Part shown: positions 6,191 to 27,778 of the stretch, piece after piece
Layout: every line of letters starts with the position of its first letter
Numbering within the stretch: the first letter of the stretch is position 1
IMG/VR virus record: IMGVR_UViG_3300015372_000014
Location: 1-30,289 of that record
DNA length: 30,289 nt
Source of the DNA: a virus
Direction: 5' to 3' (one strand)
The notes under the pieces: generated by a model
Databases searched by the model: none
The model's input: the letters and a program-made list of their open reading frames with translations, nothing else
What the model was told of the DNA's origin: nothing
Program-made: the position numbers and the translations under genes

Positions 6191-6221
6191 ACTAATCTTA
6201 TCTTTGATTGGAGTCACCCAC

Positions 6222-7499
6222 ATGAGTGGTAGCACCACCGTGCCGACGATGGACGCATTCAATGCGGTCGTATCCAAGGTGGATGCGCTGAACAACCGCG
6301 TCACCGTGCTCGAGCATGGCAATCCTCCGCCCCCACCACCACCGCCGCCGGATAAGAAGCCATCGGCTGATGGCACCACGGTCACCAACACGACCGGCGA
6401 AATTGTCGACGGCAAAGGGCGGACGTTCAAGCTCACCGGCCCGGCAAGCAACTACCAAATCAGCACCGACGGCGCGGTCTCTGGCGGGATGGTCGTGCGG
6501 CTCTATGCCAAAGGCGGGCTCTGCTACCAGGAGAATGTCAACCACGACTGGTGGGTGATGCCGCTTGCTGCGACAACCTACGGAGACGACGACTGGGTTG
6601 GATGTCCTAATCCCACCGGCGTCGCTCCTCCGCCACCGCCCCCACCAACGCCTCCTGGGCCAGTCGCTGGTGTTCCCAAACCCGCCGCTGATGTCGGCTT
6701 TACCAAGCTGACGCATGGTCCGGATGTCACGCTGGGAAAGAACTGGTTTGCGGTCCCCGGTGCATCGAACGGCGTCGTCCAAGTCTCCCCAGGAGTGGTC
6801 AGGGATAACGGCCCGATCAACGGCGGCAATTGGCACTACAACTACCACTTCGGCACCGAACGCAATGACAACGGCAAATTTGGCGGCGTTGGCTTCGGTG
6901 GTGGCGGCTACTTCGAGATCATCATGTCGATCGAAGGTAACATCGGTGGCTGGCCCGGCAACGGCACCGGGTGGCCTGCATGGTGGACCGATGCCGTCGA
7001 GGGCGCCTACGACGATTTCCCCAATCCACCTGGGCCAAAGATGCAACATATCGAGTATGATGCCGCTGAGTTTCTGCCCAAATCAAACCGCGACTACAGC
7101 GCCGGCATCATCCACTGGACCGATGCGCTTTCGCCACCTGACCAATTCAACAACAACGCCATCGGACAGGACAGCCACGTACAGCTTCCGTCCAACAACA
7201 ACTTCGCCGCGCGTCATAAATATGCTTGGCTGTGGGTGCCAGCGACCAGCACGACCAAAGGTTATATCAAGAACTACTTTGATGACCAACAGGTCGGCGC
7301 CACCTACACGTGGACGCCCTACGTCAGTGGCGACGCGCCAAACACTCCCGGCGATCCACCGTGGAGCATCATGGACCGCCAGCACTGCCGGTTGATGATC
7401 GGCACCTGCGTCGAAAACCCGCTGACGGTTTATAGTGTGTCCGTCTGGCAGAAAGACGACAGCCACAACATCCGGCGCGGTGTATCGATACCCGGATAA
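6222..7499 (+). CDS. Appendage protein with coiled coil, proline linkers and GH16-like domain (425 aa)
   Basis: Probable virion glycan-binding or glycan-cleaving protein. Residues ~8-32 form a heptad-like coiled coil (FNAVVSKVDALNNRVTVLEH), likely an oligomerisation stalk. Two polyproline linkers (from ~34 and ~135) bracket a ~90-residue module that recurs four times in the giant protein downstream. Residues ~155-425 look like a GH16/concanavalin-type domain: GGGYFEI, GWPAWW, the catalytic-type motif IEYDAAEF (E278, D280, E283, fitting E-x-D-x-x-E), and YAWLWVPATSTTKGYIKNYF. In GH16 enzymes the two Glu are nucleophile and acid/base for beta-glucan hydrolysis; the substrate here is unknown. 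A TTG at 6204 can open the frame, but ATG 6222 has GGAG at 6210-6213 with 8-base spacing. No signal peptide. It is inserted between tail terminator and tube genes. Confidence 0.8.
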   Translation: MSGSTTVPTMDAFNAVVSKVDALNNRVTVLEHGNPPPPPPPPPDKKPSADGTTVTNTTGEIVDGKGRTFKLTGPASNYQISTDGAVSGGMVVRLYAKGGLCYQENVNHDWWVMPLAATTYGDDDWVGCPNPTGVAPPPPPPPTPPGPVAGVPKPAADVGFTKLTHGPDVTLGKNWFAVPGASNGVVQVSPGVVRDNGPINGGNWHYNYHFGTERNDNGKFGGVGFGGGGYFEIIMSIEGNIGGWPGNGTGWPAWWTDAVEGAYDDFPNPPGPKMQHIEYDAAEFLPKSNRDYSAGIIHWTDALSPPDQFNNNAIGQDSHVQLPSNNNFAARHKYAWLWVPATSTTKGYIKNYFDDQQVGATYTWTPYVSGDAPNTPGDPPWSIMDRQHCRLMIGTCVENPLTVYSVSVWQKDDSHNIRRGVSIPG

Positions 7500-10486: not shown

Positions 10487-10515
10487 TGCAGAACATTGAT
10501 CCCCTGGCGACCTAA
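10486..10515 (+). other. Possible nine-codon mini-cistron before the tape measure gene
   Basis: ATG at 10486 overlaps the previous stop (TGATG), has GAAGGGGG (10473-10480) 5 bases upstream, and reads MQNIDPLAT then TAA at 10513-10515, one base before the tape measure ATG at 10517. The tape measure ATG itself has no clear Shine-Dalgarno sequence, so re-initiation after this mini-frame may be how it is translated. This is inference; an in-frame TTG at 10496 is another possible tape measure start. Confidence 0.35.
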
Positions 10516-10516
10516 G

Positions 10517-13500
10517 ATGTCCGGCACATTCCAAAGTGGCACATACACCGAAACGTATCAATTCGTCGGCGAGTTCGTCGATCGGGTAACTGCGCCCGCT
10601 GATCAGGCCAGTGTATCGCTGGATAACGTCGGCACGGCGGCAACCGATATGGGAGCGCAGGTTAAGGCCGCAACCGATGCGGTTGACGCAGGCTTCCAAA
10701 AGGTGGGCGCTTCTGCTACTGCGTCGGCCAGGGGCTTTAATGTCCTGCAGCGGGCCATCGATCCACTCGGTGCACAGTTACGTGTCGCGGAAAACAATCT
10801 CTCACGGCTGAATACGAGGATAGCAGAGGGAGGCGCGGACCTAAACAAGTATGCATCACTGCTGCCTCTCGCCATATCGCGAGTTGATGAATTAAGAAAG
10901 CGCCACGACGAACTTGCGCAGTCTCTCAAGAGTTCCGCTCAAGCAGCGCTGAATCAGACCTTGGGCATAAAACTCCCAGGATCGGACGAGGATTACAAGG
11001 CTCGCGCGGCTGATATCCAGGCATATGGCAACTCGCTCGATGCGTTACGGGCAAAATTCAATCCAGTATTCGCGCTATCGAAACAATATGAGAATACGCT
11101 AAACGAGATAGCCAAAGCACAGAAGGTCGGCGCCCTCAGCACGAATGAAGTCACGGCCGCCCAGGAGAAGGCAAGACTAAATTTCGTTGCCGCTACCCAG
11201 GCGGCCGAGGTCCATGATCGGGTAATGACCGTTCTCGACAGTAGGAACCGCCAGGTCTCACAAGGCCTGCGAATTATGTCGCTGCAGTGGATTGATCTTG
11301 TCCAAGGCATCGGCAGCGGCATGCCAATTTGGCAAACCCTGGTTCAGCAAGGCGGCCAAGTCTACCAGGTAGCGCAATTGATGAACGTCGGATTTCGTGA
11401 CGTGGGGACCTATCTTGCCAACCTAGTCTCTCCTGGGAAGCTTGCGGTCACCAGTATCGTCGCGGTCGGCGCTGCACTGGGCGCGATGGCTATCTATGCA
11501 GAGTCGACCAACCGCAGGCTGGGGGAATTGCGCGCCGAGCTATCGGCGTCGCGCGCTGACTTCGAGACCATGGCGAAGGACGTCGAAAAGTCTGCCCGCC
11601 AGGTAGCGCGGGCAACCACGGCGTCGTTCAAAGAGGCCAGTGAGGCGGCGCAGACGATCGGCAGCACCCGGGCGTTCACCGGCACGCAGCAGGACCTCGC
11701 TGATCTGACAAAGACGGCGGTCGATCTGGCCAAGGTCATGGGCACCGACATTCCAGCCGCGAGCAAGCTGTTGGCACAGGCCATGACCAACCCGGCGGCG
11801 GCACTAAAGACGCTGTCTGAGGGGGAAAAGCCGCTACAGACGGTAACGGTCGCGCTGCGGCTGCAGGTCGATGAACTGGTCAGGGTCGGCAAGTTCGCCG
11901 AGGCGGCCAAGCTGGCAGTCGATGCACTGAAGGCATCCAGCAGCGAAGCCCCCAAGCAAATGACGCCGCTGCAGAACGCCCTGCATCAGTTATCCGAAGC
12001 GCTCAGCACGGTGGGCGAGGACGGCAGGTCGTTCTCGAAGGTGATGGGAGAAGCCTTCACCGACGCGGCGGCGGCGGTGATTGGCTTTGCCGCCAAGGCG
12101 ATCAACGCCCTGCGCGATTTCCGCGATTATCTCGCCAAGCCGTCGCCAAATGTTAAGCAATCCCTCGGCATCGGCGAAGTCGGTGAGTTCGGGCAGGTTA
12201 ATCCGACGCTACAAATGACGCCGGGGGGTGGGATCAGCGTCAGCAACATCAACCCCACGGCGCTGCAATATCGGCTACAGGCGCAATTTCCGTCGCTGTT
12301 CACGCAGGGCGGAAGCCCACTGCTCGGTCCAAACGTCCCGGGGCAGGGACAGGCCGTCGGCCTCATGCAGTTGATGCCGGGGACCTATGGCGGATTGGGC
12401 TACTCCAGGGACGCCGTGACCTCAACGGCGGGCGGCAATCTCGCCGCTGGCCTGAACTACATCAACCAACTCTATGGCGGCGGACAGCGCGGCGCGTCGG
12501 AGATTTCCAACATCTATGGCGGTGCTACCAGCCCAAGCGCGCAAGCCGCCCGAGCGTCCGCCATCGGCTCCGCCGATATCAGCAAGCTGCCATCCGATGT
12601 GGTGGGCGGGATCGAATTCATCGGCCAGATATTCGGCTGGCCCGATTGGTTGATTAAGCTCGCCAAGCAGACGGCCTACGTCGAAAGCCATGGACAACAG
12701 TTTTCTGGCGGGGAGACGGGTGGCGGGTTGGGCGCGACTGCCCCGGCCGATCGTCGCAGCGCTGCAGCGAGCATCTATGGCGGCGGGCAGGATGAAGCCG
12801 CTGCCATGCGGGGCATCGAGGCCGCTAAAGATATAAAGCTGCAAGCCGACGAAGTTAAGCGGCTCACGCTTATTCTGGATGACCTGACTGCGGCACGTCA
12901 GAAGGCGCGTGACGATAAAAACGTAACAGAAGAAAAGCGCCTGACCGATGCGATCACGGTCCAGAAGGACGCGGTCGCCAACGCCGAGAATGTCCTACGG
13001 AAGGAGACGCAGGCCCTCCAGGATCAAGCCAAGGTTGCTGGCATCGTCGGCCAGGCCAACAAGGAACTGGCGCAGATCTATATAGCGGCAGCGCGGGCAC
13101 GCGAAGCCGGTCGTGGCGCCACCGATGCGCAAGTGCAGGAGCAAGTCGCCGCCCTTACCGAGAAGCAGAACTCGGCGTTTAAAGATCAGAATGCAATTCT
13201 AGATCAGACGATTGCCGCAAATAATGCAGTTGCTGCATCGTGGGAGAATGGTGCTGTCGAAGCTGCTAAGGCCACCGCAAAGGCCGAAGCGCACAAGCAG
13301 GTGATGGATACTCTGGCCACATCAACGCATGATGTCGCTGCAGCCGAGGATGAACGCACGAAGAAAATCCTTGAGGCTGCGTCGGGCCAGGAAAAGCTTA
13401 ATGCGACGAAGGAAGCGTCGCAAATCCGCGATCAGATCGGCCTCATCCAACTCGAATCACAGACGCTTGGGGAAAACAACGACCAACGCGCATTGGCCAT

Positions 13501-16066
13501 TCAGCATCGTAAAGACGAAATCGATGTGATGAACCAATACGCCCACAGATCCGAGGAAGAGCGCGCGGCAATAGTGGCTAATCGCGACGCGCTGGCACAA
13601 TCAACTCAGGCCCTGCGGAACCAGACGCGAGACGTAGATACCGTCGCCAATTCGTTCCTCTCCGCCTTCGATACAATCGGCAATGCCATCACCGAGGCCT
13701 TTGTCCAAGGCAGCGCGAGTGCCGTCAACTTCGGCAACGTGATGAAAAGCGTTGTGTCGGCGATTATCCAGCAGTTCCTCCGGCTTGCGGTCATCAACCC
13801 GATCATCAATTCGCTGTTCGGAGGCATTGGTGGCCAATCACTACCCGTGCTTGGCGGAGTGCTCGGCTCAGTGGTCGGTGGCGGCACCGGGATAGCGGAA
13901 GGCGGCACAGGTAGCAGTGGCTTCGGCGGCTTATTGCAGATCGGCGGTTTGGCCTCGCAGGGTTACAGTCTGTTCGGCGGTGGCGGCGGCCTCGGCAACA
14001 TATTCTCCGGCACCGGCTTTCTTGGATCAGGCGGCGCCGCAGCCAATTTTCTCGCCACGCCGTTGTTTGGCTCGGTGTCCGGCGCTGCCACCAATTCGGC
14101 GCTTGCGGCTTCTGGTTTCGGCATAGGTGGTGCGCCGGGCGTAGCGACGGCTGGAGCCTATACCGCGGCGGGTGGCTCCATTCCGCTGACCATAGGCGGA
14201 GCGGCTACGGGCCTCGGTCTCGGCTTCGGCCTCGGCAGTCTTGCTGGCGGCCTGCTGCAAAGCTCGCTCGGTAAGACAGGCCCCGGCCCGATGATCGGCG
14301 CTGGACTTGGCGCGGCCGGTGGCCTGGCTGGCGGCGCGCTCGCCGGTGCGGCGGCCGGATCGGTGGTTCCGGTCATCGGCACAATTATCGGTGCCATTGC
14401 AGGCGGGCTGCTAGGCGGCGCACTCGGGCCTAAGCCACCCAGCCCATATTCTGCGACCTTCGTGGGTCTCGGTAACAACGGCTTTCTGGAGGCGTATCCC
14501 GGTCTCTCCGGCAATCAGATCACGCCGTCAAACTACCAGATGGTCGCCAACGAGGTTTCAACCTTCAACCAGAACCTCGGCAATCTTGGCGTGCGGGTTA
14601 GCGGCATATCATCACCACCACCCGCCGGCGCTGCCGGTGGCCTCGGTTTCTTCGGCCAGGCCAAGAATCCCCAGGGTCTAGCGGGCGCCTCAGTCACCGA
14701 CGCATTCTCGAGATTGCGCTTTGGCGCACAGACCACAGGTTATGGCGCCGAAGAGACGGACGTGCTGAACCGTGCGCTCGATCGCACCTTCTCGTCATTC
14801 GCCGAGCTTGCGCCGGTTGTGGAAAAGGTGCGCACGTTCATGGAGCGCACGCTGCCGAGCATGCGGCAATACGGCGAGAACATCGGCTCTCTGCAACAGG
14901 CCATCAATCAGATCTCAGCGGCGTTCAATCCCGCGATTGCGACGGCCCACGATTTAGGCTTCGCCGAGCAGGAACTGACCGACAAGCGCGACGCGCAGAT
15001 CGCCAAGGTTACCGAGCAGGCCAACGCCGCATTCGCTGTGACCCAGCAGGGCTATGCATCGCGTTTTGCCACCGCAGCCGCTGCGCTATCCGGTAACTCC
15101 GCGCAGGTTGCGGCAGCTAATCTGCAAGCCTTCGATCTTCAGTCGAATGCTGAGCGTAAACAACTCACAGATAACCTTACCCAAACGTATGGCGACGCGA
15201 TCAAGACATCGCAGTTCTATGCCGATCAGATCGTCGGCCTCGACCGCGCGTTGGCCGCAGAGAGGTTGGTGATAATCAAAGATGCGGACGCCGCGATACT
15301 CCAGCAGCAACAGCAAGCTGCCGAACAGCAACGGCTATTGGCAGAGGCCGCAGCGCAGGCCGATGTATTGCGGGGTGATCTAAACGCGCGCCTCGCGGCC
15401 GCTCAGGCAACAACGCCAGCAGAGATAACGGCAGCCAATCTCGCTGCCTTCGATCAGCAGGCCAACGCCCAGAGAAAGCAGCTGGCGGACCAATATCAAA
15501 CCCAAGCTTACTATGCCGACCTGTCGGCGCGGTTGGAGACCACGCTCGGGGCAGAGCGTCTCAAAATACAGACGGCCGCGAATGACCAAATCATCCAGCA
15601 GCAACAGCAAGCGATGGAGCAAGCGAAGCAGACCGCGACGGGGTTAGTGACATCGCTGGCGGATTACGTGCGCGGGTTAAAGTTCGGCGGACAATCCCCG
15701 CTCGCTCCTAACCAGCAACTTCTCGAAGCATCGCGGCAATTCGGGGCCGTCGCTGGTGCGGCAATGGCGGGCGACAGTAACTCTTTTGCGAAGCTGCCGT
15801 CATACACGGATGCCTACTTGTCTGCGGCGCGCACAACCTACGGTAGCGGCCTAGGGTATGCTACACTTTTTCAGCAAATTACGGATATATTGGCCTCAGT
15901 TGCCGAGGTTCCTGTAGATATGTTAACAGCCAGTATTTACGTAGTCGAAACTAGAACACAAACCGCTACTTTGGAGGCGGCCATCCAGAATCTCCAGAAT
16001 GAGGTAGCCGGCCTGCGCGGCCAGTTAGCGGCTGGCTCGGCAATGCCAGACCGCCTTGCTGCTTGA
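10517..16066 (+). CDS. Tape measure protein (1849 aa) with transglycosylase-like segment
   Basis: Determines tail length and is ejected into the cell at infection. Residues ~1-250 are coiled-coil rich; ~255-560 resemble the prophage TMP_2 type (LRIMSLQWIDLVQGIGSG, LAQAMTNPAAALKTLSEG). Residues ~600-735 hold lysozyme-like fragments: GLMQLMPGTYGG (G615), NLAAGLNYINQLYGG, and a separate YVESHGQQFSGGE (E723). Residues ~1030-1103 match the lambda tape-measure C-terminal type (VANSFLSAFDTIGNAITEAF, IIQQFLRLAVINPI). About 1107-1305 is a Gly/Ala-zipper hydrophobic region that could insert into membrane. The rest is helical with a tandem duplication rich in Gln. ATG 10517 is preferred over TTG 10496. 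By the rough rule of 0.15 nm per residue the tail would be near 280 nm. Its 3' end overlaps the convergent minus-strand gene by 101 bases. Confidence 0.9.
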   Translation: MSGTFQSGTYTETYQFVGEFVDRVTAPADQASVSLDNVGTAATDMGAQVKAATDAVDAGFQKVGASATASARGFNVLQRAIDPLGAQLRVAENNLSRLNTRIAEGGADLNKYASLLPLAISRVDELRKRHDELAQSLKSSAQAALNQTLGIKLPGSDEDYKARAADIQAYGNSLDALRAKFNPVFALSKQYENTLNEIAKAQKVGALSTNEVTAAQEKARLNFVAATQAAEVHDRVMTVLDSRNRQVSQGLRIMSLQWIDLVQGIGSGMPIWQTLVQQGGQVYQVAQLMNVGFRDVGTYLANLVSPGKLAVTSIVAVGAALGAMAIYAESTNRRLGELRAELSASRADFETMAKDVEKSARQVARATTASFKEASEAAQTIGSTRAFTGTQQDLADLTKTAVDLAKVMGTDIPAASKLLAQAMTNPAAALKTLSEGEKPLQTVTVALRLQVDELVRVGKFAEAAKLAVDALKASSSEAPKQMTPLQNALHQLSEALSTVGEDGRSFSKVMGEAFTDAAAAVIGFAAKAINALRDFRDYLAKPSPNVKQSLGIGEVGEFGQVNPTLQMTPGGGISVSNINPTALQYRLQAQFPSLFTQGGSPLLGPNVPGQGQAVGLMQLMPGTYGGLGYSRDAVTSTAGGNLAAGLNYINQLYGGGQRGASEISNIYGGATSPSAQAARASAIGSADISKLPSDVVGGIEFIGQIFGWPDWLIKLAKQTAYVESHGQQFSGGETGGGLGATAPADRRSAAASIYGGGQDEAAAMRGIEAAKDIKLQADEVKRLTLILDDLTAARQKARDDKNVTEEKRLTDAITVQKDAVANAENVLRKETQALQDQAKVAGIVGQANKELAQIYIAAARAREAGRGATDAQVQEQVAALTEKQNSAFKDQNAILDQTIAANNAVAASWENGAVEAAKATAKAEAHKQVMDTLATSTHDVAAAEDERTKKILEAASGQEKLNATKEASQIRDQIGLIQLESQTLGENNDQRALAIQHRKDEIDVMNQYAHRSEEERAAIVANRDALAQSTQALRNQTRDVDTVANSFLSAFDTIGNAITEAFVQGSASAVNFGNVMKSVVSAIIQQFLRLAVINPIINSLFGGIGGQSLPVLGGVLGSVVGGGTGIAEGGTGSSGFGGLLQIGGLASQGYSLFGGGGGLGNIFSGTGFLGSGGAAANFLATPLFGSVSGAATNSALAASGFGIGGAPGVATAGAYTAAGGSIPLTIGGAATGLGLGFGLGSLAGGLLQSSLGKTGPGPMIGAGLGAAGGLAGGALAGAAAGSVVPVIGTIIGAIAGGLLGGALGPKPPSPYSATFVGLGNNGFLEAYPGLSGNQITPSNYQMVANEVSTFNQNLGNLGVRVSGISSPPPAGAAGGLGFFGQAKNPQGLAGASVTDAFSRLRFGAQTTGYGAEETDVLNRALDRTFSSFAELAPVVEKVRTFMERTLPSMRQYGENIGSLQQAINQISAAFNPAIATAHDLGFAEQELTDKRDAQIAKVTEQANAAFAVTQQGYASRFATAAAALSGNSAQVAAANLQAFDLQSNAERKQLTDNLTQTYGDAIKTSQFYADQIVGLDRALAAERLVIIKDADAAILQQQQQAAEQQRLLAEAAAQADVLRGDLNARLAAAQATTPAEITAANLAAFDQQANAQRKQLADQYQTQAYYADLSARLETTLGAERLKIQTAANDQIIQQQQQAMEQAKQTATGLVTSLADYVRGLKFGGQSPLAPNQQLLEASRQFGAVAGAAMAGDSNSFAKLPSYTDAYLSAARTTYGSGLGYATLFQQITDILASVAEVPVDMLTASIYVVETRTQTATLEAAIQNLQNEVAGLRGQLAAGSAMPDRLAA
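15060..15630 (+). repeat. Tandem duplication in the tape measure C-terminal region
   Basis: Two copies of a ~80-90 residue helical unit (about 15060-15345 and 15385-15630). Both contain A-A-N-L-x-A-F-D-x-Q-x-N-A-x-R-K-Q-L, then an x-x-Y-A-D segment, A-E-R-L-x-I and a poly-Gln run. Copies are clearly diverged, so the duplication is not recent. Confidence 0.7.
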
Positions 16067-17681: not shown

Positions 17682-17711
17682 GTGGCGATGTCTCCTCATC
17701 CCTCGTGGTCA

Positions 17712-17784: not shown

Positions 17785-18429
17785 TCAGCCAACCGGCCCC
17801 GCCGAATGCACGAGCGCTTGGAATTCGTGGCTCGCGATAAACAATCGGATCGCATGGCGCACGGCCGCAGTATCAGCGACGTTCAACGGCTGCGATGCAC
17901 CACTAATCCTTGATACACCCGTAGTTGTCGTCCTTAGGACGACGGTCCTGCTGGCAGGGTCGAACACCTGCCACTCAATCGCGACAGCGGAGTCGGCTGA
18001 TCCGTTGGTCAGATCTCCGAACCCACCCATCGGGAAGCACGCGTTGTCATGCACATCAATGACGCGGCCTGCGATACGGATGGCGGTCGGGTTATCGTCA
18101 GCCGTGGCGAACAGATCGCCCGGCGGATTGATCAGCGGGTAGCCGTTCATAGCGAATTCCTCGCGGATGATTTCGAGCGCCACCTCACTCGTCGAGTTAA
18201 ACGCATGTGCGTTCAGCGTCGCGTGTGGGATACACAACAGACCGAGGGCAATCACCCCATTCTGGTGGCCGAGCGGAAGCTGGAGCACCAGTTTCTGGAC
18301 AGCGATGGGTCGCATATTGGCGTCCGCATGTGGCACGTAAACCTCTGGCACGGGTGGTGGCGCTGAGACGCACCCAGCTAGCGCGCCCAATGTTAGCGCC
18401 GTTGTAGCTAGAATGATGAACTTACGCAT
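17785..18429 (-). CDS. Phage-encoded lipoprotein (214 aa)
   Basis: The start at 18429 is fixed by AGGAGGGA five bases upstream and by the signal peptide it produces: MRKFIILATTALTLGALAGC, a lipoprotein signal with lipobox L-A-G-C (lipidated Cys20). Val at position +2 predicts outer-membrane sorting in a Gram-negative host. The frame is open up to 18477, but that adds a non-signal extension. After a Pro-rich linker (SAPPPVPEVYVP) the mature domain is about 180 residues, with EIIREEFAMNGYPLI, RIAGRVIDVHDNACFP and a strand pair AVAIEWQVFDPASRTVVLRTT, then a helix VRHAIRLFIASHEF. The fold reads like small periplasmic lipoproteins (CsgG/YajG-like), but the function is not established. Because it is transcribed apart from the tail operon it may be a cargo (moron) gene, for example for surface exclusion; that is inference. 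Confidence 0.8.
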   Translation of the reverse strand: MRKFIILATTALTLGALAGCVSAPPPVPEVYVPHADANMRPIAVQKLVLQLPLGHQNGVIALGLLCIPHATLNAHAFNSTSEVALEIIREEFAMNGYPLINPPGDLFATADDNPTAIRIAGRVIDVHDNACFPMGGFGDLTNGSADSAVAIEWQVFDPASRTVVLRTTTTGVSRISGASQPLNVADTAAVRHAIRLFIASHEFQALVHSAGPVG

Positions 18430-18567
18430 TGTTCCCTCCTGTTGGAGGATCTCTAGCATAATTGTTATGCGTTGCACAACAATTCAGTGACGTGCGGCTG
18501 CTTCCGTAGCGAAGCATAGCGGCCTCCCCGACCAATCGATTGAGATCAATAATGAAAGGGCACACCA
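18430..18567. promoter_or_regulatory. Divergent intergenic region with several dyads
   Basis: This 138-base, relatively AT-rich gap separates the minus-strand lipoprotein from the plus-strand giant gene and should hold the lipoprotein promoter. Dyads seen: GCATAA-TTG-TTATGC (18456-18470), ATTGTT/AACAAT (18461-18466 and 18478-18483), the palindrome CAATCGATTG (18533-18542), and ATTGA-GA-TCAAT (18539-18550). A weak minus-strand promoter candidate is TTGTTG, 16 bases, TATGCT. No clear plus-strand promoter was found. Confidence 0.45.
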
Positions 18568-21500
18568 TTGGAATATGGTTGGGCCGGCAGCGGCAGCTAT
18601 TTAACCGCACCAGTTACCGCACTATCGACTGAATTAACCGGCCTCGCATCGTCATCTGGCGATGTGTTGGCGGTCTCGGCGCCGTTCGCCAACTCGCAAG
18701 GCGCGGTCTGGGCCGACTTGGAGTTTATCGCCGGTGGGACATGTTCCCCCGGCGTTGATGCGTTCCTTGAGGTATGGATCCTCCGTTCACTCGACGGCGG
18801 CCTGACGTTCGAAGACGGTTCCTCCACGGTCGCTCCCGCGCGCGGTCCGGATGCGACCATCGAAATCAATACCGGCACGAGCATAACCCCGCACGCGGGA
18901 TATCCAGGCGTCATGCTGCCGCCGGGGACATTCAAGGTTGCCCTACGCAATCAAATGGGCGTCGCCATTCCGTCCGGTTCCTCGGTGCGCTTTGCCGTCT
19001 ATTCCGAGGGCTCTGGGGCCGATAGCGCGGTTTTGGCCGGTGATGCCACAGGCACCACCGCGCTGCGCATTGCCGACATGATGGAGCGCTTCGGCGTCGT
19101 CACCTATTCGCAGTCAGTTGCCGGGACCAATCCGTGGGGAGCCGGGGTCAGCAACTACACCACAGACTCGGTGATCCAGGCGCTTACCTACCTGACCGCC
19201 AATAGCGGCATGCGCTGCAACATTCGAGAATACCACGTTGCTGGCCGCGACACCGGCGGCGGCTCAAATCAGCTGTCCTGGTGCCCGACCGTCGCTGCCT
19301 CCACCGGCAGTAAGTTTTCCGTTTCTTTACTGCGCGGTGCAGTCGCCGCCGATGCGACATCGCTCGCAGCAATGGCAGTTTCATCGGCCGACGGCACGGG
19401 CTGGATGGCCTGGGCCGAAGGTTTGAACACGCCAAACGACGGCAGCGTCTCCGCGGCGAACTGCGTCACGGTGCAGCAAACGCTGTATAACGGCGTTGCA
19501 GCGACCCGAGATAGGACGAACCCTGTCACCGTCGCCAGTCCGTCGTATACATACAATACGCTGCCTCCTGAGACCTCGACGGCAATCGCCAGCTATCTCA
19601 CCACGCAGCAAAAGTCTGATCTGCTGGCATCATCCTCGCTCGCCTCGGTGCGGTTCTTCCCAACGCTTGATCCAGAGGCGGACGACAGTTCCAGCCGCGG
19701 TGGCAATGCTGATGACGTAGCGCTGGGCCACGGTGTCTACTTCGGCAAGCCACTAATCCTTGGTGAGTGGCATCCGACCTCGGGGAATACTGACAGCCCA
19801 AGCCATGCCACCGACGATAGCTTTGGCGCGCTCTATGCCGCGCTCGGCATATTGAACTTTCATCGGCTCGGCTACGAGGCGTGGTTCTACAAATCTCTGT
19901 TCGATATCGGCCAGAGTGGTGACAGTCCGTTTGTGCGCGTCGGCCTGTTTCCCAATAGCGGCAGCGACACACCGCGGCTGCCTGCGCGCACCATCCGTGC
20001 GATGTATGCGCTGACCGGAGATAGCGGATCCAAGAAACGCACCTTCCGGCCATCGAAGTTAGACTACACGATCACGGGCCTGCAGGCGCCAGGGTCCAAT
20101 GCGACGCCATGGACCGGCGGTCACCATCGTCTGTATCAGAATTCAGGCGGCACATTTTTCCTGTTCATCTGGAACGAGCAGCGGCCGATACTCGGCAGCG
20201 GCGCCACCATTACGGTCAGTTTCATCCGATCTATGGCGCGGGTCGTGCATTATGATCTGACCACCGATGCGACGACCGCGGAGACTCCGGTTGCGACGTT
20301 GACCAACATCGCCACGCTGAACTTCTCGCTGACCGCGTCGGTGCATCTGTTTGTCATATCCCCACAGGGATCGATTATTCCCACCGAAAGTGCGCAGGAC
20401 ACCACCCTGACCACGGCAACTGGGGCGATTTATGACGCGGCTGGCGTTGCCTATACGCTGATCAACAATCCGCCCAACGGCTTCCAGGTCAATCACGCGG
20501 GGCAGACCGACGGATCCAATATCGTCCTGCTTCTCTATCACGATCATGCCGTTTATTGGCAGACATCGACCAACTCCTGGGCGGTTTGGTCAGGCAGCAC
20601 TTGGGTAACAGTTCCAGGCGACCCGCGCATCGTCTTGAGTGAAAGCCCAGAGGGCCTGACGATTACTGGGCCTGGAACGACGATATTTGCATCGCAGACC
20701 CCTGGCTCTCCTGCAGGCGCCTCGCTTGACCAGTTCACCATCAACTCCAGCGCGCAGATGGTGCGAAATGGCGTCGCCGATGCCGGCACGGCAAACGTCA
20801 TGCAGGCCTACTATCATAATCATACGGTATATATCCAGCAGACCGCGGGAAACGCCTTTGGCACGCCTGGTTGGTCGACTTGGAACGGCGCGACGTGGGT
20901 CGCAGTGGCAAATCCGTTCGGCACCGTGGAATCACCCGAAGGCACACAAGTCTCAAGCATCGGGCCGACGATCAATGCCTCGGTAACCCCAGGCACGGCA
21001 TCGAGCACGGTGCATGTCTTTGCGCTCGTCCAGGGCACGCAACCTGACAATCCAGTTTTCCAGATGACCTTCGATGGCACCCTGGATACCGAAAGCTGGG
21101 GCGTCGATCTGCTCTACTACCACAATCATCAGATCTACGAGCGCACGATCGGTTCCAATTCGCTCGGCAGTCCGGCGTGGTATGTCTGGACAGGGCCTGG
21201 AATGTTCGACTGGACCGATACATCTAATCCGATCCCAGCGGCACCGACCGAGACGACCAGCGGCACCTATGTCACCACCGCAGGAACGATCATCTATGCA
21301 TCACTGACGCCAGGCCAGGTAGGCGGCATCGTTCTTGACCAATGGGCTATAACTTCGAGCCGCACATTGAACCGCAACGGCTCGCCAGACGGTTCGTCCA
21401 GTAACGTCGTCGCTATCTACTACGCCTCACACTTCCTGTATCGCCAGGAATCCACCCCTAACACGCTCGGCGATAATCCTGGTTGGTGGCAATGGAACGG

Positions 21501-24210
21501 CTCCGGCTGGATCGACGTGCACGACCCGCGCCCAGTCAATCCCGCCATTACGATCGCCAACATCCCGCAGGTCATCGAGGGCCAAACATTTGGCGTGAGT
21601 GGCACGCTGCAGGGACAGGCCACACCTCCAGCACTGCAATACCGCGATGGCGCTGGTGCATGGGTAGCGCTGCCGGCCGGGGCGTCGGTCTCGACGACGG
21701 CGTTCAGTTTTACCCATCCGGCGATGACGACAACTTCCGCAGGAGCGCCTCCACTCGCGGCTGCGCAAGGCTACAACATGCGCACCCTCGGGCCGCTGCC
21801 AACGCTGAACAGCAATTGGTTCGTGCAGCCCGGCTACAGCGTATTTCAAAACGCCAACGGATCCATGACTGACCCTGGTCCCCAGGGGGCTGGCTATGGC
21901 GCGAACGACCATGTGCGCACTTGCAGCCCGAATGGAACGAATTTCCATGGCAGCGCATTCGGCGGCGGCGGCTATTTTGAAATCGATATGGCGTTCCAGA
22001 ACAACTCCTCGTCGCAGACGGGGAGCGGCTGGCCCGCATGGTGGGCCAATAATATCGAAGACGCGTTTAACGACACGCCGGGATTTCTTCCAGAAGGCAT
22101 TGGCATCGAATATGATGCGGCGGAATTCTTGGACCAAATTCCCAGCCAAGGCGGCACGATCAACGCCGGCATCATCCTGTGGGACCAACCCGGCCATATG
22201 TGGACATCGCTGGATAATGGCCAGCCCGGCGGCATGACCCCGCCCTCCGACCTGAGGCAGCGGCATAAATATTCGTGGCTCTGGGTGCCTGCAACAGGAA
22301 GCACGCAAGGCTACATCAAGAATTACATCGATGGTGTGCAGCTCGGGAATACCTACACCTGGAACCTATACGACGTTAGCCGCGGATGGGCCGAAACGCG
22401 AGATGTCGATCCATGGTCCCCGATGGACGCTCTTCGCTTCAAGTTGATGATTGGCACGAACGACGAAAATCCGTGCACGATTTACACAGTGTCCGTCTGG
22501 CAAAGGGACGATAGCCAGAACCTTCGCGTCGGCGTCGCTCTACCGAGCCAAGGTGGCGGCGGCAGTGGTGGAACGTCATCGGTCAGCGTTCGGCTTGCAG
22601 CAAATACTGCCATCCAAGCGACGTCAAACACGTTCAACATTGTCCCCGCCGGAGCGATGACGCTGACCGGCATTACGCTCTCTGGCACCACCGTGGTGGC
22701 GGGATCCGGTGCTGGCACACCGATTGGCAATGTCGCTGTCCAAGCAACCGGCGGCACCTTCTCAGGCACGCTCTCGGTCAACGATACGACGCACTTCCGC
22801 TTTGTCGGTTCTTCACTGCAATTGGCCACCACGCTGGCCGCCGGCAATTACCCGATCAACATCACCGCGACCCAGTCAGGCGCGTCCGCGTCACCGATGG
22901 TCAGAGCGTTCACCATTCAGGCGACGACCTCAAGCAACACCACTGTGAACTTCTCGGCGCCTACTGGGAAAACCCTGCTCAAGACGATGTGGGGCTTTTC
23001 TTGCAGCATCTATGGCGGCCAGTTCTTCAGCAACGCAACATTCCGCAACACCGCCAACACGTGGCTGAAACCCGCGTGCCTATGGTTCAACACGGACTGG
23101 AACCTCGACACCGACTACGCCAACGGCAATATGGGAACCATCAATGCGCTGTTGGGTAACTACCGCTCGTTCTGTCAGACCGGCGTGCGCGTCATCATGG
23201 GCGTCGCCGGCTCTCTGACACCGACGGACTCACCTTCTGTTGTGGCGTCGCGGGCGGCGAATTTTGCCAGCTATCTGGCGAACAACGGCTACTCCGACAT
23301 TATGGACTTCAGCGCCGGAAATATGTGGAATATCGATGGCGTGTCACAGGCGACGATGACGCCATACTTTACCGCTATTGCTGACGCGCTGCACAACGTC
23401 AATTCAGCCTATCGTGTCTGGGGACCACCGCAGTGGGATCCGGCGGTTTATGCCAATTCGACGTTCGCCAACGTGTCCAATATGGCCAATCGGTGCAATG
23501 GCGTGATCTGGATGGCCTATCACGGCGGCGGCCCAAACAATAATCTAACCACACCGTTGAACACGCTTTACGGGCAATTCGGCGTTAACACCACGGACAA
23601 CAGCGTCCAGCGCTCAGCACTATCTGGCACACCATTGGCCAACAAGCCGTTCGGCGTCATCGAATATAATCTTGGAGAGAACGATAACCATAGCAATACA
23701 CTCGCCGAGACCGGGCAATACCACGGAGCGATCTACGCCGCAGCCTACACATATGGCGTGTTCAAGAACGGCACCGGCATGGAGTTCTGCAACTGGCAAA
23801 ACATCGTCAGATATGTGGACGAGGGCTGTATTGGCAGTGTTCAGCAGGGCAGTAGCCTTACAGCGGTAACGGCTGCTGGGTATTTCCTAGGCAAGGCCGG
23901 CCAGTCGCTGTTTGGCGCGGAATACACTGTCTCGAGTTCTATCGCCAACTTGGTGATCCTGGCGGTAAAGCCGACCGCGACGACGTTCGCCATCATGCTG
24001 CTTAACTACGATCTGTCGGCGTCACGCACCGTCAACCTCTCGGTGAGCGCGGGCGGTGTGCCGACAGGCACCATATCACGCTGGGAAATCGGCAAGTCAT
24101 CACCCGGTGGGCCGGTCTCGCCGACCCCAGTGACTGGCACCCAGGCCAGCCTCGCCTCGATCTCCGTCGCTTCGGAGACCGTGGTTATCCTGACGGGAAC
24201 ACTGGCATGA
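18568..24210 (+). CDS. Giant multidomain protein with three glycoside-hydrolase-like domains (1880 aa)
   Basis: Probable tail-tip glycan-processing or receptor-binding protein. Order: N-module (~1-152, paralogous to the next gene); TIM-barrel GH-like domain (~165-610) with WAEGLNTPND at 282-291 and LILGEW (E400); four ~95-residue modules (~608-990) with NVxxxYYHxHxVYxQ and PGWxxWNGxxW; a beta-sandwich-like segment (~990-1060); GH16-like domain (~1070-1325) with GSGWPAWW and IEYDAAEF (E1181, D1183, E1186); a GGGGSGG linker (~1329); a cadherin/Ig-like domain (~1335-1450); and a second GH39/GH79-like barrel plus beta-sandwich (~1455-1880) with SAGNMWNID and FGVIEYN (E1699). In both barrels the usual acid/base Glu of N-E appears replaced (T288, M1586). 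TTG start: GAAAGGG lies 7 bases upstream and the N-terminus aligns with its paralogue. No signal peptide. The stop overlaps the next ATG (ATGA). Confidence 0.85.
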   Translation: MEYGWAGSGSYLTAPVTALSTELTGLASSSGDVLAVSAPFANSQGAVWADLEFIAGGTCSPGVDAFLEVWILRSLDGGLTFEDGSSTVAPARGPDATIEINTGTSITPHAGYPGVMLPPGTFKVALRNQMGVAIPSGSSVRFAVYSEGSGADSAVLAGDATGTTALRIADMMERFGVVTYSQSVAGTNPWGAGVSNYTTDSVIQALTYLTANSGMRCNIREYHVAGRDTGGGSNQLSWCPTVAASTGSKFSVSLLRGAVAADATSLAAMAVSSADGTGWMAWAEGLNTPNDGSVSAANCVTVQQTLYNGVAATRDRTNPVTVASPSYTYNTLPPETSTAIASYLTTQQKSDLLASSSLASVRFFPTLDPEADDSSSRGGNADDVALGHGVYFGKPLILGEWHPTSGNTDSPSHATDDSFGALYAALGILNFHRLGYEAWFYKSLFDIGQSGDSPFVRVGLFPNSGSDTPRLPARTIRAMYALTGDSGSKKRTFRPSKLDYTITGLQAPGSNATPWTGGHHRLYQNSGGTFFLFIWNEQRPILGSGATITVSFIRSMARVVHYDLTTDATTAETPVATLTNIATLNFSLTASVHLFVISPQGSIIPTESAQDTTLTTATGAIYDAAGVAYTLINNPPNGFQVNHAGQTDGSNIVLLLYHDHAVYWQTSTNSWAVWSGSTWVTVPGDPRIVLSESPEGLTITGPGTTIFASQTPGSPAGASLDQFTINSSAQMVRNGVADAGTANVMQAYYHNHTVYIQQTAGNAFGTPGWSTWNGATWVAVANPFGTVESPEGTQVSSIGPTINASVTPGTASSTVHVFALVQGTQPDNPVFQMTFDGTLDTESWGVDLLYYHNHQIYERTIGSNSLGSPAWYVWTGPGMFDWTDTSNPIPAAPTETTSGTYVTTAGTIIYASLTPGQVGGIVLDQWAITSSRTLNRNGSPDGSSSNVVAIYYASHFLYRQESTPNTLGDNPGWWQWNGSGWIDVHDPRPVNPAITIANIPQVIEGQTFGVSGTLQGQATPPALQYRDGAGAWVALPAGASVSTTAFSFTHPAMTTTSAGAPPLAAAQGYNMRTLGPLPTLNSNWFVQPGYSVFQNANGSMTDPGPQGAGYGANDHVRTCSPNGTNFHGSAFGGGGYFEIDMAFQNNSSSQTGSGWPAWWANNIEDAFNDTPGFLPEGIGIEYDAAEFLDQIPSQGGTINAGIILWDQPGHMWTSLDNGQPGGMTPPSDLRQRHKYSWLWVPATGSTQGYIKNYIDGVQLGNTYTWNLYDVSRGWAETRDVDPWSPMDALRFKLMIGTNDENPCTIYTVSVWQRDDSQNLRVGVALPSQGGGGSGGTSSVSVRLAANTAIQATSNTFNIVPAGAMTLTGITLSGTTVVAGSGAGTPIGNVAVQATGGTFSGTLSVNDTTHFRFVGSSLQLATTLAAGNYPINITATQSGASASPMVRAFTIQATTSSNTTVNFSAPTGKTLLKTMWGFSCSIYGGQFFSNATFRNTANTWLKPACLWFNTDWNLDTDYANGNMGTINALLGNYRSFCQTGVRVIMGVAGSLTPTDSPSVVASRAANFASYLANNGYSDIMDFSAGNMWNIDGVSQATMTPYFTAIADALHNVNSAYRVWGPPQWDPAVYANSTFANVSNMANRCNGVIWMAYHGGGPNNNLTTPLNTLYGQFGVNTTDNSVQRSALSGTPLANKPFGVIEYNLGENDNHSNTLAETGQYHGAIYAAAYTYGVFKNGTGMEFCNWQNIVRYVDEGCIGSVQQGSSLTAVTAAGYFLGKAGQSLFGAEYTVSSSIANLVILAVKPTATTFAIMLLNYDLSASRTVNLSVSAGGVPTGTISRWEIGKSSPGGPVSPTPVTGTQASLASISVASETVVILTGTLA
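20392..21535 (+). repeat. Four tandem ~95-codon modules (YYH-x-H type)
   Basis: Inside the giant protein, units starting near 20392, 20638, 20929 and 21247 each encode a segment with G-T/P-x-I-x-A-S, then N-V-x-x-x-Y-Y-H-N-H-x-V-Y, and end in P-G-W-x-x-W-N-G-x-x-W. A fifth, more diverged unit lies in the 425-residue appendage protein between its two proline linkers. The repeated aromatic/His pattern suggests a carbohydrate-binding beta module, which is inference. Confidence 0.75.
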
Positions 24211-24647
24211 CGATCGTTCGCTGGGGCGCCTATGAACTGCCGGTTGTGCTGCTCAATGCCAGCGTGTTGGCAGGCTTAGCCAACACCGGGATCAGCGCGC
24301 CAGGCGACGACATCATTAATACCGGTGGATCGCTCTACTGCGATGTCGAGTTTGTTGCCGGGGCGGCGTTCTCCCCTGGCGCCAACGCTATGCTGGATAT
24401 CTGGGTGTTGCGCTCGATCGATGGCGGGGTGTCGTTCGAGGATGGTGCTGCGGGGTTCATTCCATCGCGTGACGCTGATCTGACGATCGCGGTGCGCACC
24501 GGAACATCGATCATTCCGCGCGCCGGTGGCGCCCAGCTAGTTCTACCGCCAGGCCACTTCAAGGCGTTGGCCCGCAATCGCCTCGGCGTGTCGATCCCAG
24601 CCGCTAGCCTCGTGCGTATCGCCTCCTACACCGAAACCGCTGTGTAG
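24207..24647 (+). CDS. Stand-alone copy of the giant protein's N-terminal module (146 aa)
   Basis: It aligns end to end with residues ~1-150 of the preceding giant protein: DVEFVAGAAFSPGANAMLDI against DLEFIAGGTCSPGVDAFLEV, WVLRSIDGGVSFEDG against WILRSLDGGLTFEDG, RTGTSIIP against NTGTSITP, and VLPPGHFKALARNRLGVSIP against MLPPGTFKVALRNQMGVAIP. The fold is probably an all-beta jelly-roll-like domain. Its start ATG overlaps the previous TGA. Since the giant protein begins with this module, it is probably an attachment or assembly domain, and the stand-alone copy could form a mixed ring, act as an adaptor, or remain from an earlier fibre whose distal part was lost. The function is unassigned. 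Confidence 0.8.
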   Translation: MTIVRWGAYELPVVLLNASVLAGLANTGISAPGDDIINTGGSLYCDVEFVAGAAFSPGANAMLDIWVLRSIDGGVSFEDGAAGFIPSRDADLTIAVRTGTSIIPRAGGAQLVLPPGHFKALARNRLGVSIPAASLVRIASYTETAV

Positions 24648-24649
24648 CC

Positions 24650-27600
24650 ATGGCGCAGCCGCCGTTTGAACGGGCCGCAAGGCAGAGCCCCGGCAAACCG
24701 CACGGTCCGATTTCCGTTGACCTCAGCCACCCGCTCGGCAACTTCCTGCGCACAGTGCTGCTGTTCGAAGACAGCCGACTGACGGACACCGCGCTTCCGG
24801 CCCGTAGGAACGCCCGCCGCGGCACCATTACCATCTCCCGTGGTCCGAATGGCGCGCAGGCCCGCAGTTCGCTCAGCGGCACCACAGGGCCGGCGAACAC
24901 ACCGTGTCTTACGCTGGCCCCCAAGGATACCGTCACAAGCGCGTTCACCCTGTCGGCCATGGTGCGGTTTTCCGGCATAGGGCCACAGGCAGGTAGCTTC
25001 AACTCAATCGGTGCCGGGTTGGCAGGCGACGACACCGGGCGCATGCCGCTATACGTGTCGGTTGCCGCGGGCACCTTTCGCACCCGCGTGCCAGCCGAGA
25101 ATGCGTTTCTCTCAGCCGGCCAACCGCTGGTCGCCTCGTCGCTGACCGGCTGGCATCGCGTTACGGTCACCGTCACCGGTTCCACCGCTACGCTCTACAT
25201 CGATGGCGGCACGACTTGGATCGGCACGACAACCCAGGCGTTTGCCGGTTTCACCTTGCGCTCGGTGTTCGGCTCGGATGTGACGTCTGGCATTGAGTGG
25301 CCGTGGCCCGCCGCGGACGTGTTCTATTGGACGCGGGCGCTGGCAGCCAACGAGGTCGCGGCCCACGCGCGGCGTCCCTACGCGGTGCTGAAAACCCGCT
25401 TATCAGAGCGTTGGCTCACCCCGTCGGTGATCCCCGCCCCGCCAGAGAGCGGCGATGCGTGGGATCCGGTGTTCGACGATAGCTTCGGTAGCGGAGTAGC
25501 TATAGGCGTGCTGGTGCAAATCCCTGGCGCTGGCAGGCTACGGGCTACCGCGGTGGTTTTCCAGGCCTCGACACCGGTCGACGCCAACACCGTCATCAGA
25601 GGCGACAGTTTTTTCCACGCCTCGGCAAGGGCGGTGAAACCAGCCACGGCGATCATCCGTGGGAGCGGCGGGTTGACCGCTAATGCACTCACCACAGCAC
25701 CCCACGTCGACTTCGGCGGGGTTGGCGCATTGGCCGCCGTCCCCTCGCGCGTGCTACGGCGGTCGTCACTCAAGATCGATGGCGACGCCAACATCATTGC
25801 CAGACCCGGCGTCCGCTATTCCGTGCGTGGCGCGGCACAAGGCAGTGGCGCGCTGCTTACTGATCCTTTCGTGCTGGAGCCGTTTAATCACGGCCGCTAT
25901 GCTGGAAGGGGCGTCGGCACCATTATCGCGACGCCGATACGCACTGCCGCTCCGCCGAAGATGGCGATCCTTGCTGGTTCTGGGACGCTGCGCGTCAGCA
26001 ACCTGACCTTCAAAGGCAGCTCCCGCTGCAAGATCATCGGCAATGGGACGCTTATTGCCAAACCGCACGTTCGTAGGAAGGTAAGACTACGTCCGGGTAT
26101 CGCCGCTGGTATGGAGCCTGACTTCGTCGCCTTCGAGCTGGAGACATTCACGCCAGGATCCGTGCCGGTCGTGGCAACCTACGCCCACGGCACACGCGCG
26201 CACGGCACGTTGTCTCGCTTGCCGCCGACCTTGTTAGAAAATACCGAGTTCATCGTCGCCTCTGATCTAGGTTATCGCTCATCGCCGAGCGATCAGGGAG
26301 GTGTGGTGGCTTATCCGCCGTTGTTATCTGACGCCTACCAGATCGATGCCGCGCTCACGCTCGAGCCGTCGCGCACGTCAGCATCCGCCGCTTGGGGTAA
26401 TGTCGTGCTTGCTAATCCCAACCAGCGGTTTGACCATCTTAACGGCTTGCAGAATTCCGACGGGCGGTCGGTTAGGCTGCTGAGCGGAAGCAAGCGCTGG
26501 GACGCCACTCGGCAGTATTTCACCGACCCAACATATGCCTCGCTCGCAGTGCTGTTTTCCGGACTTGCCACGCCATGGGCGCTGACAGATCAAGGTCTAT
26601 CAGTGCCGTTACGCGATGCCTCATATTGGTTGGAAAAACCCCTGACAACCAACCTATACGGTGGCACGGGGCAGGCCGACGGAACGCCGGATCTTAAGGG
26701 CAAGCCGAAGCCTATGTTGCGCGGGGGCACGCAAAGCGCGCCGGTGCAGAACATAACACCAACATTGATCGATCCGAATCCTAATGGGTATATCTACCAA
26801 TATTCCGATGAACCAGGTGTAATTACCACCTTGTATGAAGCCGCCGGCTCCGGTCCGGGCGGGATCTCCTATGCAGGGGATACCACGAACTTATGGGGGG
26901 GCGCAGCGCCGATCGGACAATATCGAACCGACAATTCACGCGGCCTGTTCCAACTTGGTAGTCTTCCCGTTGGGCAAATCACCGTTGATGCAATCGGCTA
27001 TTTCCATACTGCGGGCCAAGTATCCAATGCACTCGACATCTGCCGCTATCTCCTCCTCGAGGAAATGACACTGTCTGAATCGATGATCGACGGCGATAGC
27101 TTCACGACAGCTGTCACAGCCCACCCAAACTATGTCGCTGGAATGTATTTCGGGACCGATGAGTCGTGGAGCTGCATCCAGGCTATCGATGCCATCCTAA
27201 GTTCATTGGGCGCCAATCTTGTGCCGACGCGTGACGGCCGCCTAAGATTGACTTTGCTGCGTGCCTTAAACGGCGATGAGACGCCCGTCGCAAGCTATGA
27301 TGAAACTGATATCATCAGTCTGACGCGCCGCCCATTACCGGCAACGCTCGATCCGCCGTCTTATCGGTTTCGCGTTTCCTATCTGCACAATTATACGGTG
27401 ATGACCGCAATTAACACCTTGTTGGCAGGCTCGGACGCGCGCGTGCAATACGTGCAATCTGCCGACCGCTACGCCACATGGTATGACCCGACTATCCTAA
27501 ACGCCTATCGTCGCCCCAACGACTTTCAGCCAATGAATGGTCCATTGCTGACCGAGGTGGGTGCGACAGAGGTCGCGTTCGAGCACGGAGCCCTGTGGGG

Positions 27601-27778
27601 GCAGAAGCGGCGAACCTACAATATCACTCTGCCACGGCGGGAGTTCGGCTGGGAGTTCGGTGATGTGCTGCATATTAAATACCCGGTTGAGGACCTGACC
27701 AATGGGCAGAATACTCAGGTCGTCGGCTACTCGCTGCGCGCAACGGACGCGACCGTGACGTATACGGTGCTGGTCTGA
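24650..27778 (+). CDS. Tail hub-like protein with LamG domain and G-x-G-x-L-x-A repeats (1042 aa)
   Basis: Probable tail-tip/hub component. Residues ~75-245 look like a LamG/concanavalin domain (SAFTLSAMVRFSG, GWHRVTVTVTGSTATLYIDG, then ALAANEVAAHARRPYAVLK). Residues ~283-478 hold about nine repeats of the same ~20-residue family found in the two proteins at the window start. The C-terminal ~550 residues resemble siphovirus hub proteins: VVLANPNQRFDHLNG, a GGTGQADGTPDLKGKPKPMLRGG stretch, a helix around LDICRYLLLEE, DGRLRLTLLRALNGDETPV, DIISLTRRPLPATLDPPSYRFRVSYLHNYT, and a terminal strand run VVGYSLRATDATVTYTVLV. ATG starts two bases after the previous stop; no clear SD. A hub carrying adhesion domains would couple receptor contact to tube opening; this is inference. 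Confidence 0.75.
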   Translation: MAQPPFERAARQSPGKPHGPISVDLSHPLGNFLRTVLLFEDSRLTDTALPARRNARRGTITISRGPNGAQARSSLSGTTGPANTPCLTLAPKDTVTSAFTLSAMVRFSGIGPQAGSFNSIGAGLAGDDTGRMPLYVSVAAGTFRTRVPAENAFLSAGQPLVASSLTGWHRVTVTVTGSTATLYIDGGTTWIGTTTQAFAGFTLRSVFGSDVTSGIEWPWPAADVFYWTRALAANEVAAHARRPYAVLKTRLSERWLTPSVIPAPPESGDAWDPVFDDSFGSGVAIGVLVQIPGAGRLRATAVVFQASTPVDANTVIRGDSFFHASARAVKPATAIIRGSGGLTANALTTAPHVDFGGVGALAAVPSRVLRRSSLKIDGDANIIARPGVRYSVRGAAQGSGALLTDPFVLEPFNHGRYAGRGVGTIIATPIRTAAPPKMAILAGSGTLRVSNLTFKGSSRCKIIGNGTLIAKPHVRRKVRLRPGIAAGMEPDFVAFELETFTPGSVPVVATYAHGTRAHGTLSRLPPTLLENTEFIVASDLGYRSSPSDQGGVVAYPPLLSDAYQIDAALTLEPSRTSASAAWGNVVLANPNQRFDHLNGLQNSDGRSVRLLSGSKRWDATRQYFTDPTYASLAVLFSGLATPWALTDQGLSVPLRDASYWLEKPLTTNLYGGTGQADGTPDLKGKPKPMLRGGTQSAPVQNITPTLIDPNPNGYIYQYSDEPGVITTLYEAAGSGPGGISYAGDTTNLWGGAAPIGQYRTDNSRGLFQLGSLPVGQITVDAIGYFHTAGQVSNALDICRYLLLEEMTLSESMIDGDSFTTAVTAHPNYVAGMYFGTDESWSCIQAIDAILSSLGANLVPTRDGRLRLTLLRALNGDETPVASYDETDIISLTRRPLPATLDPPSYRFRVSYLHNYTVMTAINTLLAGSDARVQYVQSADRYATWYDPTILNAYRRPNDFQPMNGPLLTEVGATEVAFEHGALWGQKRRTYNITLPRREFGWEFGDVLHIKYPVEDLTNGQNTQVVGYSLRATDATVTYTVLV
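25496..26085 (+). repeat. About nine G-x-G-x-L-x-A repeats within the hub-like gene
   Basis: Units such as IPGAGRLRA, IRGSGGLTA, FGGVGALAA, ILAGSGTLRV and IIGNGTLIA occur at about 20-residue spacing. They match the repeat core of the two repeat proteins at 1-1235 and 1708-4533 and link distant genes of the window. Confidence 0.75.

Follow-up and report, generated by a model that had tools for sequence, protein, structure and literature searches.

A modular protein encoded in a phage tail-gene cluster that may read and cut host EPS

Introduction

Phage depolymerases have been described mostly as beta-helix tailspikes. What, then, does a phage do with a polypeptide of 1880 residues in which several domains resemble carbohydrate enzymes, and which of these domains are likely to act as enzymes? 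This question is raised by P0001, encoded in the 30,289-nucleotide stretch of viral DNA analysed here (hereafter the window; IMG/VR virus record IMGVR_UViG_3300015372_000014). The initial annotation, made from the sequence alone, had described P0001 as three hydrolase-like domains with accessory modules in an exceptional order, suggestive of a multi-substrate glycan depolymerase or a glycan-reading device.

Results

The P0001 gene and its module order

18568..24210 (+), P0001, 1880-aa modular protein (open frame, orthologs, start context)
18568..19017 (+), N-module, residues 1-150, possible docking module (47% identical to the 146-aa neighbour)
19018..20367 (+), TIM1, putative barrel with sandwich, residues 151-600 (Thr288 at the acid/base Glu of its relatives; Glu400 kept)
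20386..21528 (+), four YYH modules, residues 607-987 (L087 and L088 combine YYH with a TIM1-type domain)
21538..21747 (+), Ig-like 1, first part, about residues 991-1060 (HMM 5-59 at residues 1000-1068, iE 4.5e-22)
21742..22551 (+), GH16-type cassette, residues 1059-1328 (putative catalytic EYDAAE at residues 1181-1186, 22108-22125)
22545..22694 (+), Ig-like 1, second part, residues 1327-1376 (HMM positions 56-98, iE 1.5e-7)
22695..22932 (+), Ig-like 2, about residues 1377-1455 (labelled by eye; conserved between orthologs)
22933..24207 (+), TIM2, predicted clan GH-A barrel with sandwich, residues 1456-1880 (GNMWNID after strand 4; Glu1699 on strand 7)

P0001 begins at a TTG codon with AAAGGG 7 nt upstream, and the start position is common to its relatives L052, L053 and L054 (all TTG) and to L055, which has ATG at the same place; in L056 the open frame is longer in this region. 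The gene is also carried, with 8 nt differences, by the 124-kb contig G001 of the same phage, and an ortholog elsewhere (L006/L052) is equal in length and 77% identical, which together rule out an assembly artefact. Between the window phage and L052, the N-module and TIM1 are 90-92% identical in protein despite only 49-63% identity at fourfold sites (92% and about 50%, respectively, for TIM1), indicating that selection maintains P0001; a chance ORF is ruled out by this conservation.

Searches with the whole protein gave no match in Pfam, in PHROGs (queried with P0001 and nine other window proteins), in PDB sequences or, by tblastn at E 0.01, among 50,697 records of phage isolates. P0001 was not found described in the literature covered, which consisted of titles and abstract starts with subscription journals thinly represented; in the available parts of PMC11058221 and PMC11652154 the string GH16 occurs in reference lists only, PMC11058221 having it within the name GH169.

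A scan with TIM1 recovered seven contigs, comprising the same phage, five further distinct phages and one duplicate (L057, identical to L056 and not counted as a phage of its own). A single-sequence viral scan with TIM2 returned the same phage only. The full order (N-module, TIM1 with sandwich, four YYH modules, GH16-type domain within Ig-like 1, Ig-like 2, TIM2 with sandwich) is present in four distinct uncultured phages (window/G001, L052, L053 and L056), and two more carry variants: L054 has a different GH16-type domain in the slot, its gene being split into two ORFs just after that domain, and L055 is without GH16. The 1880-residue frame proposed initially is thus real, supported by its open frame, the same-length ortholog and four more distinct relatives in the same gene place, and the proposed architecture holds broadly, except that there are two Ig-like domains, the first of which is split by GH16 in HMM matches. 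The order is exceptional in having no match among the isolate records, but it is not unique: the relatives of identical order that the annotation had suggested looking for were found in L052, L053 and L056, and a unique architecture is rejected.

The tail-gene neighbourhood

10496..16066 (+), tape measure protein (PF06791 E 3.5e-22; phrog_24 E 1.2e-22)
24207..24647 (+), 146-aa protein, stand-alone N-module (start overlaps the P0001 stop)
24650..27778 (+), conserved gene in hub position, LamG-like N-terminal part (PF13385; phrog_8917 E 4.7e-81)

Tail-cluster genes of the window encode a head-tail adaptor, tail terminator, tail tube, tape measure and a collar-type protein. The gene at 24650-27778 is labelled hub by position only, phrog_8917 being a PHROG of unknown function. 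The order tape measure, P0001 ortholog, 146-aa N-module gene, hub-position gene recurs in all five other contigs, and this gene order points to a possible place for P0001 in the virion. The 47% identity between the N-terminus of P0001 and its 146-aa companion suggests docking, and the N-module is therefore a possible docking module for P0001 in the tail. The only isolate matching the hub-position protein was Synechococcus phage MinM1, in which the hub-type gene directly follows a gene for a 938-aa hypothetical protein with no Pfam match. By place and size this gene would be the tape measure, in which case the genes for P0001 and its companion would have been inserted between the two.

On the opposite strand, a 577-aa HNH-endonuclease-like gene (15966-17699; phrog_559, E 9.8e-31) overlaps the tape measure gene at its end and is missing from the matches obtained for the other five contigs, and a 230-aa lipoprotein-like ORF with a weak spanin-family match (17785-18477; E 0.037) adjoins P0001. 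Several tail-cluster proteins, encoded on the plus strand at 3-1235, 1708-4533 and 24650-27778, contain long stretches of Ala-, Gly- and Thr-rich short repeats that are degenerate versions of ATLxGxGxLTA, and the first two of these proteins had no family match in PHROGs.

The GH16-type domain

The predicted fold of residues 1055-1313 has GH16 enzymes as its best matches (Z 17.5, rmsd 2.8 over 203 residues; Foldseek E 2e-6), so that residues 1059-1328 have the predicted beta-jelly-roll fold of this family. We take E-x-D-x-x-E to be the GH16 catalytic motif. A five-row profile whose search patterns did not contain this motif identified 28 loci on 16 viral contigs, nine contigs having two or three copies. 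ExDxxE was kept in 28 of 28 non-identical modules (i-E < 1e-5, > 150 HMM positions, identical strings counted once) and is invariant across the 28 rows of alignment A8, L054 included, the other modules being 25-76% identical to that of P0001. The P0001 module had no match to Pfam PF00722 (cut-off 22 bits), to which the L054 slot variant scored 21.8 bits, and PDB sequence searches with the GH16 profiles gave no match. A further window protein also pairs GH16 with YYH:

6204..7499 (+), 431-aa protein, YYH module and second GH16-type domain (sequence comparison within the window)

An Ig HMM derived from nine GH16-free Ig-like copies of L040, L032, L055 and L042 (copy 2 of L040 left out) matches P0001 in two halves with GH16 between them, and is split the same way in L052, L053 and L056; in L054 the second ORF begins with the second half. 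GH16 thus lies inside an Ig-like domain in five distinct phages, and in L055 (itself in the HMM), where GH16 is dispensable, Ig positions 1-96 are uninterrupted. In a different protein, that of L040, one Ig copy kept out of the HMM is likewise interrupted (halves at 616-692 and 881-946) by an insert that reaches the Pfam GH16 cut-off (22.0 bits, E 1.2e-4) and is without ExDxxE by eye. By these split matches, proteins of two kinds carry GH16-type inserts in a loop of this Ig-like domain. From such comparisons, the GH16-type domain in the Ig loop appears to be a cassette that phages carry, have exchanged, have a different GH16 type in place of (L054) or do without (L055). The L040 gene (2856-7946, +) encodes two GH16-type domains at its start and seven Ig-like copies, with a further GH16-type insert within one of them.

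Exchange between phages

In protein, the GH16 domains of L052 and L056 are 89% identical, compared with 57-78% for the other modules, and 70 of 111 fourfold sites agree in GH16 versus 250 of 596 elsewhere (p=4.7e-5); exchange of GH16 between L052 and L056 is well supported by these alignments. Conversely, the window phage and L052 share 81-92% identity in other modules and 54% in GH16 (fourfold p=0.011). Their TIM2 cores are 53% identical with a fourfold difference that is not significant (p=0.097), and the TIM2 differences between phages may reflect fast divergence instead of exchange. In the GH16 tree the nearest neighbour of the window is L024 (support 1.0), whose ORF is cut by the contig end and stops after GH16. 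In the TIM2 tree L052 is nearest to a separate protein, L028 (0.988), and the window to L053 (1.0); the window-L052 pairing in the TIM1 tree is weak (0.374). As for the N-module (residues 1-150), 92 of 98 fourfold sites agree between L052 and L053, whereas other modules agree at 35-61%, a pattern that we read as a second recent exchange.

Two predicted barrels without the canonical acid

The TIM2 model (pLDDT 85.8, pTM 0.90) aligns from end to end with enzymes of clan GH-A (Z 31, rmsd 3.0 over 389 residues; Foldseek E 3e-15) and has the barrel with sandwich of GH39 and clan GH-A. A ten-row TIM2 profile matched the GH39 xylosidase 1px8 (E 2.1e-6), and Pfam PF01229 (GH39) gave no match above cut-off for P0001 TIM2; TIM2 of L055 scored 22.4 bits against its cut-off of 26 (E 6e-5). 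By model and profile, TIM2 is thus predicted to be a clan GH-A barrel with GH39 as its nearest family. The acid/base Glu of this clan presumably lies in the NEP after strand 4, which is present in two of the ten TIM2 sequences (L055 and L043) and missing in eight, including P0001 (GNMWNID). Three places after a conserved Trp, five of these eight have Asp or Glu (Asp1590 in P0001), and L052, L053 and L056 have Asn, His and Asn, respectively. On strand 7, five of the ten sequences, P0001 among them, have Glu and the other five have Asp.

For TIM1, a joint model of residues 150-1328 fell below pLDDT 50-60 and was unusable, the fold search with this model testing little beyond GH16; TIM1 profiles gave no match in the PDB, and a direct profile comparison lent no support to a relation between TIM1 and TIM2 (probability 0.6%). 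Its kinship comes instead from sequence relatives (L083-L102), Acetobacteraceae proteins that appear to hold both glycosidase glutamates. The acid/base Glu (EGxNE/EGxLE) is present in 20 of 20 relatives and is Thr in all six phage copies, while the second catalytic Glu (the nucleophile; Glu400 in P0001) is kept in 26 of 26 rows and Asp291, three residues after Thr288, in six of six phage copies. Because HMM matches to these relatives are mostly C-terminal, the acid site is placed by the multiple alignment.

These differences bear directly on what had been claimed. Three hydrolase-like domains are found as regards fold (in TIM1 by sequence kinship only) but not as regards catalytic residues, and three active hydrolases are rejected on the residue differences in TIM1 and TIM2. 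The proposed glycan depolymerase or glycan-reading device gains support from the carbohydrate-enzyme folds of GH16 and TIM2, the fold assignment that had been called for being available for these two parts but not for TIM1, which gave no usable model, and from TIM1 relatives with both glutamates; its multi-substrate form is undercut by the lack of the canonical acid/base Glu in both barrels. From motif conservation and predicted structure, GH16 looks to be the sole one of the three hydrolase-type domains that is catalytically intact.

Host and polysaccharide context

In the family to which an Acetobacteraceae MAG belongs, 14 of 397 genomes matched the TIM1 profile, compared with 0 of 398 sampled from its phylum (p=5e-5); since at most four candidates were scored per genome and related genomes are not independent, this distribution is a host lead and not proof. 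TIM1-type domains are joined to a YYH module in L087 and L088, and L109 joins two YYH modules to another barrel by eye. YYH matches occurred in five of 299 genomes of the family and two of 299 of the phylum sample, one being shared, and YYH is not clearly family-specific. The hosts are probably Acetobacteraceae-like bacteria coated with exopolysaccharide (EPS).

Seven of the 12 chromosomal GH16 loci were covered (L070, L072, L075, L076 and L077 left out), and six of these seven (L067, L068, L069, L071, L073 and L078) lie in polysaccharide-synthesis clusters with genes for chain-length/kinase, flippase, glycosyltransferase, polymerase or exosortase functions around them; by eye, L074 lies outside such a cluster. 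The two plasmid matches each follow a polysaccharide tyrosine autokinase gene. In L078 (8444-10741, +) one 766-aa frame joins an O-antigen-ligase-type domain (Wzy_C) to a GH16-type domain. Within the same phage as the window, L018 (G001 40001-60000) has epimerase- and glycosyltransferase-like ORFs, by eye, near a gene for a 788-aa GH16 protein, and from these genes the phage may modify surface glycans. A 348-aa protein at L010:93-1139 (-), which adjoins the 788-aa protein, resembles a further jelly-roll glycanase by eye and had no Pfam match at E 1.

Discussion

Two barrels that are under selection without the standard acid, their companion modules and one intact cutter lead us to propose, with a probability of about 0.5, that P0001 is an EPS reader-and-cutter of the tail cluster in phages of Acetobacteraceae-like hosts, in which the barrels read and GH16 cuts. 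The N-module, which is also a separate product of the next gene, would dock P0001 in the tail, and TIM1, the YYH modules and TIM2 would bind host EPS, the two glycosidase-type barrels serving as readers after loss of the canonical general-acid glutamate. GH16, with ExDxxE intact, would cut EPS chains as an endo-glycanase and thereby let the particle advance, and its swap or loss at the Ig loop would give the unchanged scaffold a different glycan specificity. P0001 thus probably grips and trims the host sugar coat. More tentatively, its origin may lie in captured bacterial secreted-type glycosidases, two of them switched off at the general acid to become tail glycan readers, with the live cutter as an exchangeable Ig-loop insert that sets specificity through swaps, and no beta-helix.

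The barrels might instead be active through relocated acids, for which Asp1590 (TIM2) and Asp291 (TIM1) are possible candidates, and P0001 would then be a true multi-substrate depolymerase with all three enzyme domains at work. The strand-7 Glu kept in all six phage copies of TIM1 and in P0001 TIM2 is consistent with this, as are the acidic residues after the Trp in TIM2 and the constancy of Asp291. Nevertheless, the Asn, His and Asn of L052, L053 and L056 at the TIM2 position, together with Asp on strand 7 in half of the sequences, are unlike the conservation expected of catalytic residues, and the TIM1 relatives all hold the standard Glu; we consider this explanation rather unlikely. At the other extreme, GH16 could also be a mere lectin and the whole of P0001 an adhesin without enzymatic activity. 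The fold list does include Rv0315 (titled pseudo beta-1,3-glucanase) and, at lower Z, lectins, and L055 does without GH16, but invariance of ExDxxE in modules of such divergence makes this very improbable.

A different objection concerns location: instead of being a virion protein, P0001 could be a glycanase that acts inside the cell or is set free at lysis, the product of a metabolic accessory gene that breaks down polysaccharide on the host's behalf or helps release. The parts of the literature covered here do discuss glycoside hydrolases in environmental viromes as auxiliary metabolic genes, and gene order is what places P0001 in the particle. That place is nevertheless fixed between the tape measure and hub-position genes in every other contig, the gene overlaps the start of the next tail-cluster gene and has an N-module in common with that neighbour, and no signal peptide is evident in P0001 by eye, all of which makes a role outside the virion unlikely.

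If P0001 is an EPS reader-and-cutter, its logic is like that of reviewed depolymerases and its building blocks differ. Virion-associated polysaccharide depolymerases and tailspikes have parallel beta-helix topology and undergo domain transfer, according to the accessible part of one review (PMC5380687). P0001 is like the proteins described there in being modular, in lying in a tail cluster (tape measure upstream), in having specificity domains exchanged between phages and in its expected binding and cutting of surface polysaccharide; where they have a beta-helix, it is predicted to have a GH16 sandwich in an Ig loop and GH-A-type barrels. No parallel beta-helix was among the matches listed for the modelled GH16 and TIM2 parts. 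GH16 resembles endo-glycanases (carrageenase 9xkt, endo-1,3-glucanase 2vy0) in predicted fold and ExDxxE, but is too distant for Pfam and PDB sequence profiles and sits inside an Ig-like domain. Likewise, TIM2 is similar in fold and profile to the GH39 beta-xylosidases of clan GH-A (1px8), whose acid/base Glu is missing in P0001 and in seven of nine other TIM2 sequences, and TIM1 is kin to the Acetobacteraceae EGxNE barrel proteins, two of which also carry YYH and which keep the Glu that is Thr in the phage copies.

If true, the proposed reading would be an example of phages converting bacterial enzymes into parts for recognising the host, through retired barrels and an Ig-loop insert. The six relatives form a natural series, with GH16, with another GH16 or with none, and with TIM2 that has or lacks the acid, and experiments on this series could tell EPS reading apart from EPS cutting.
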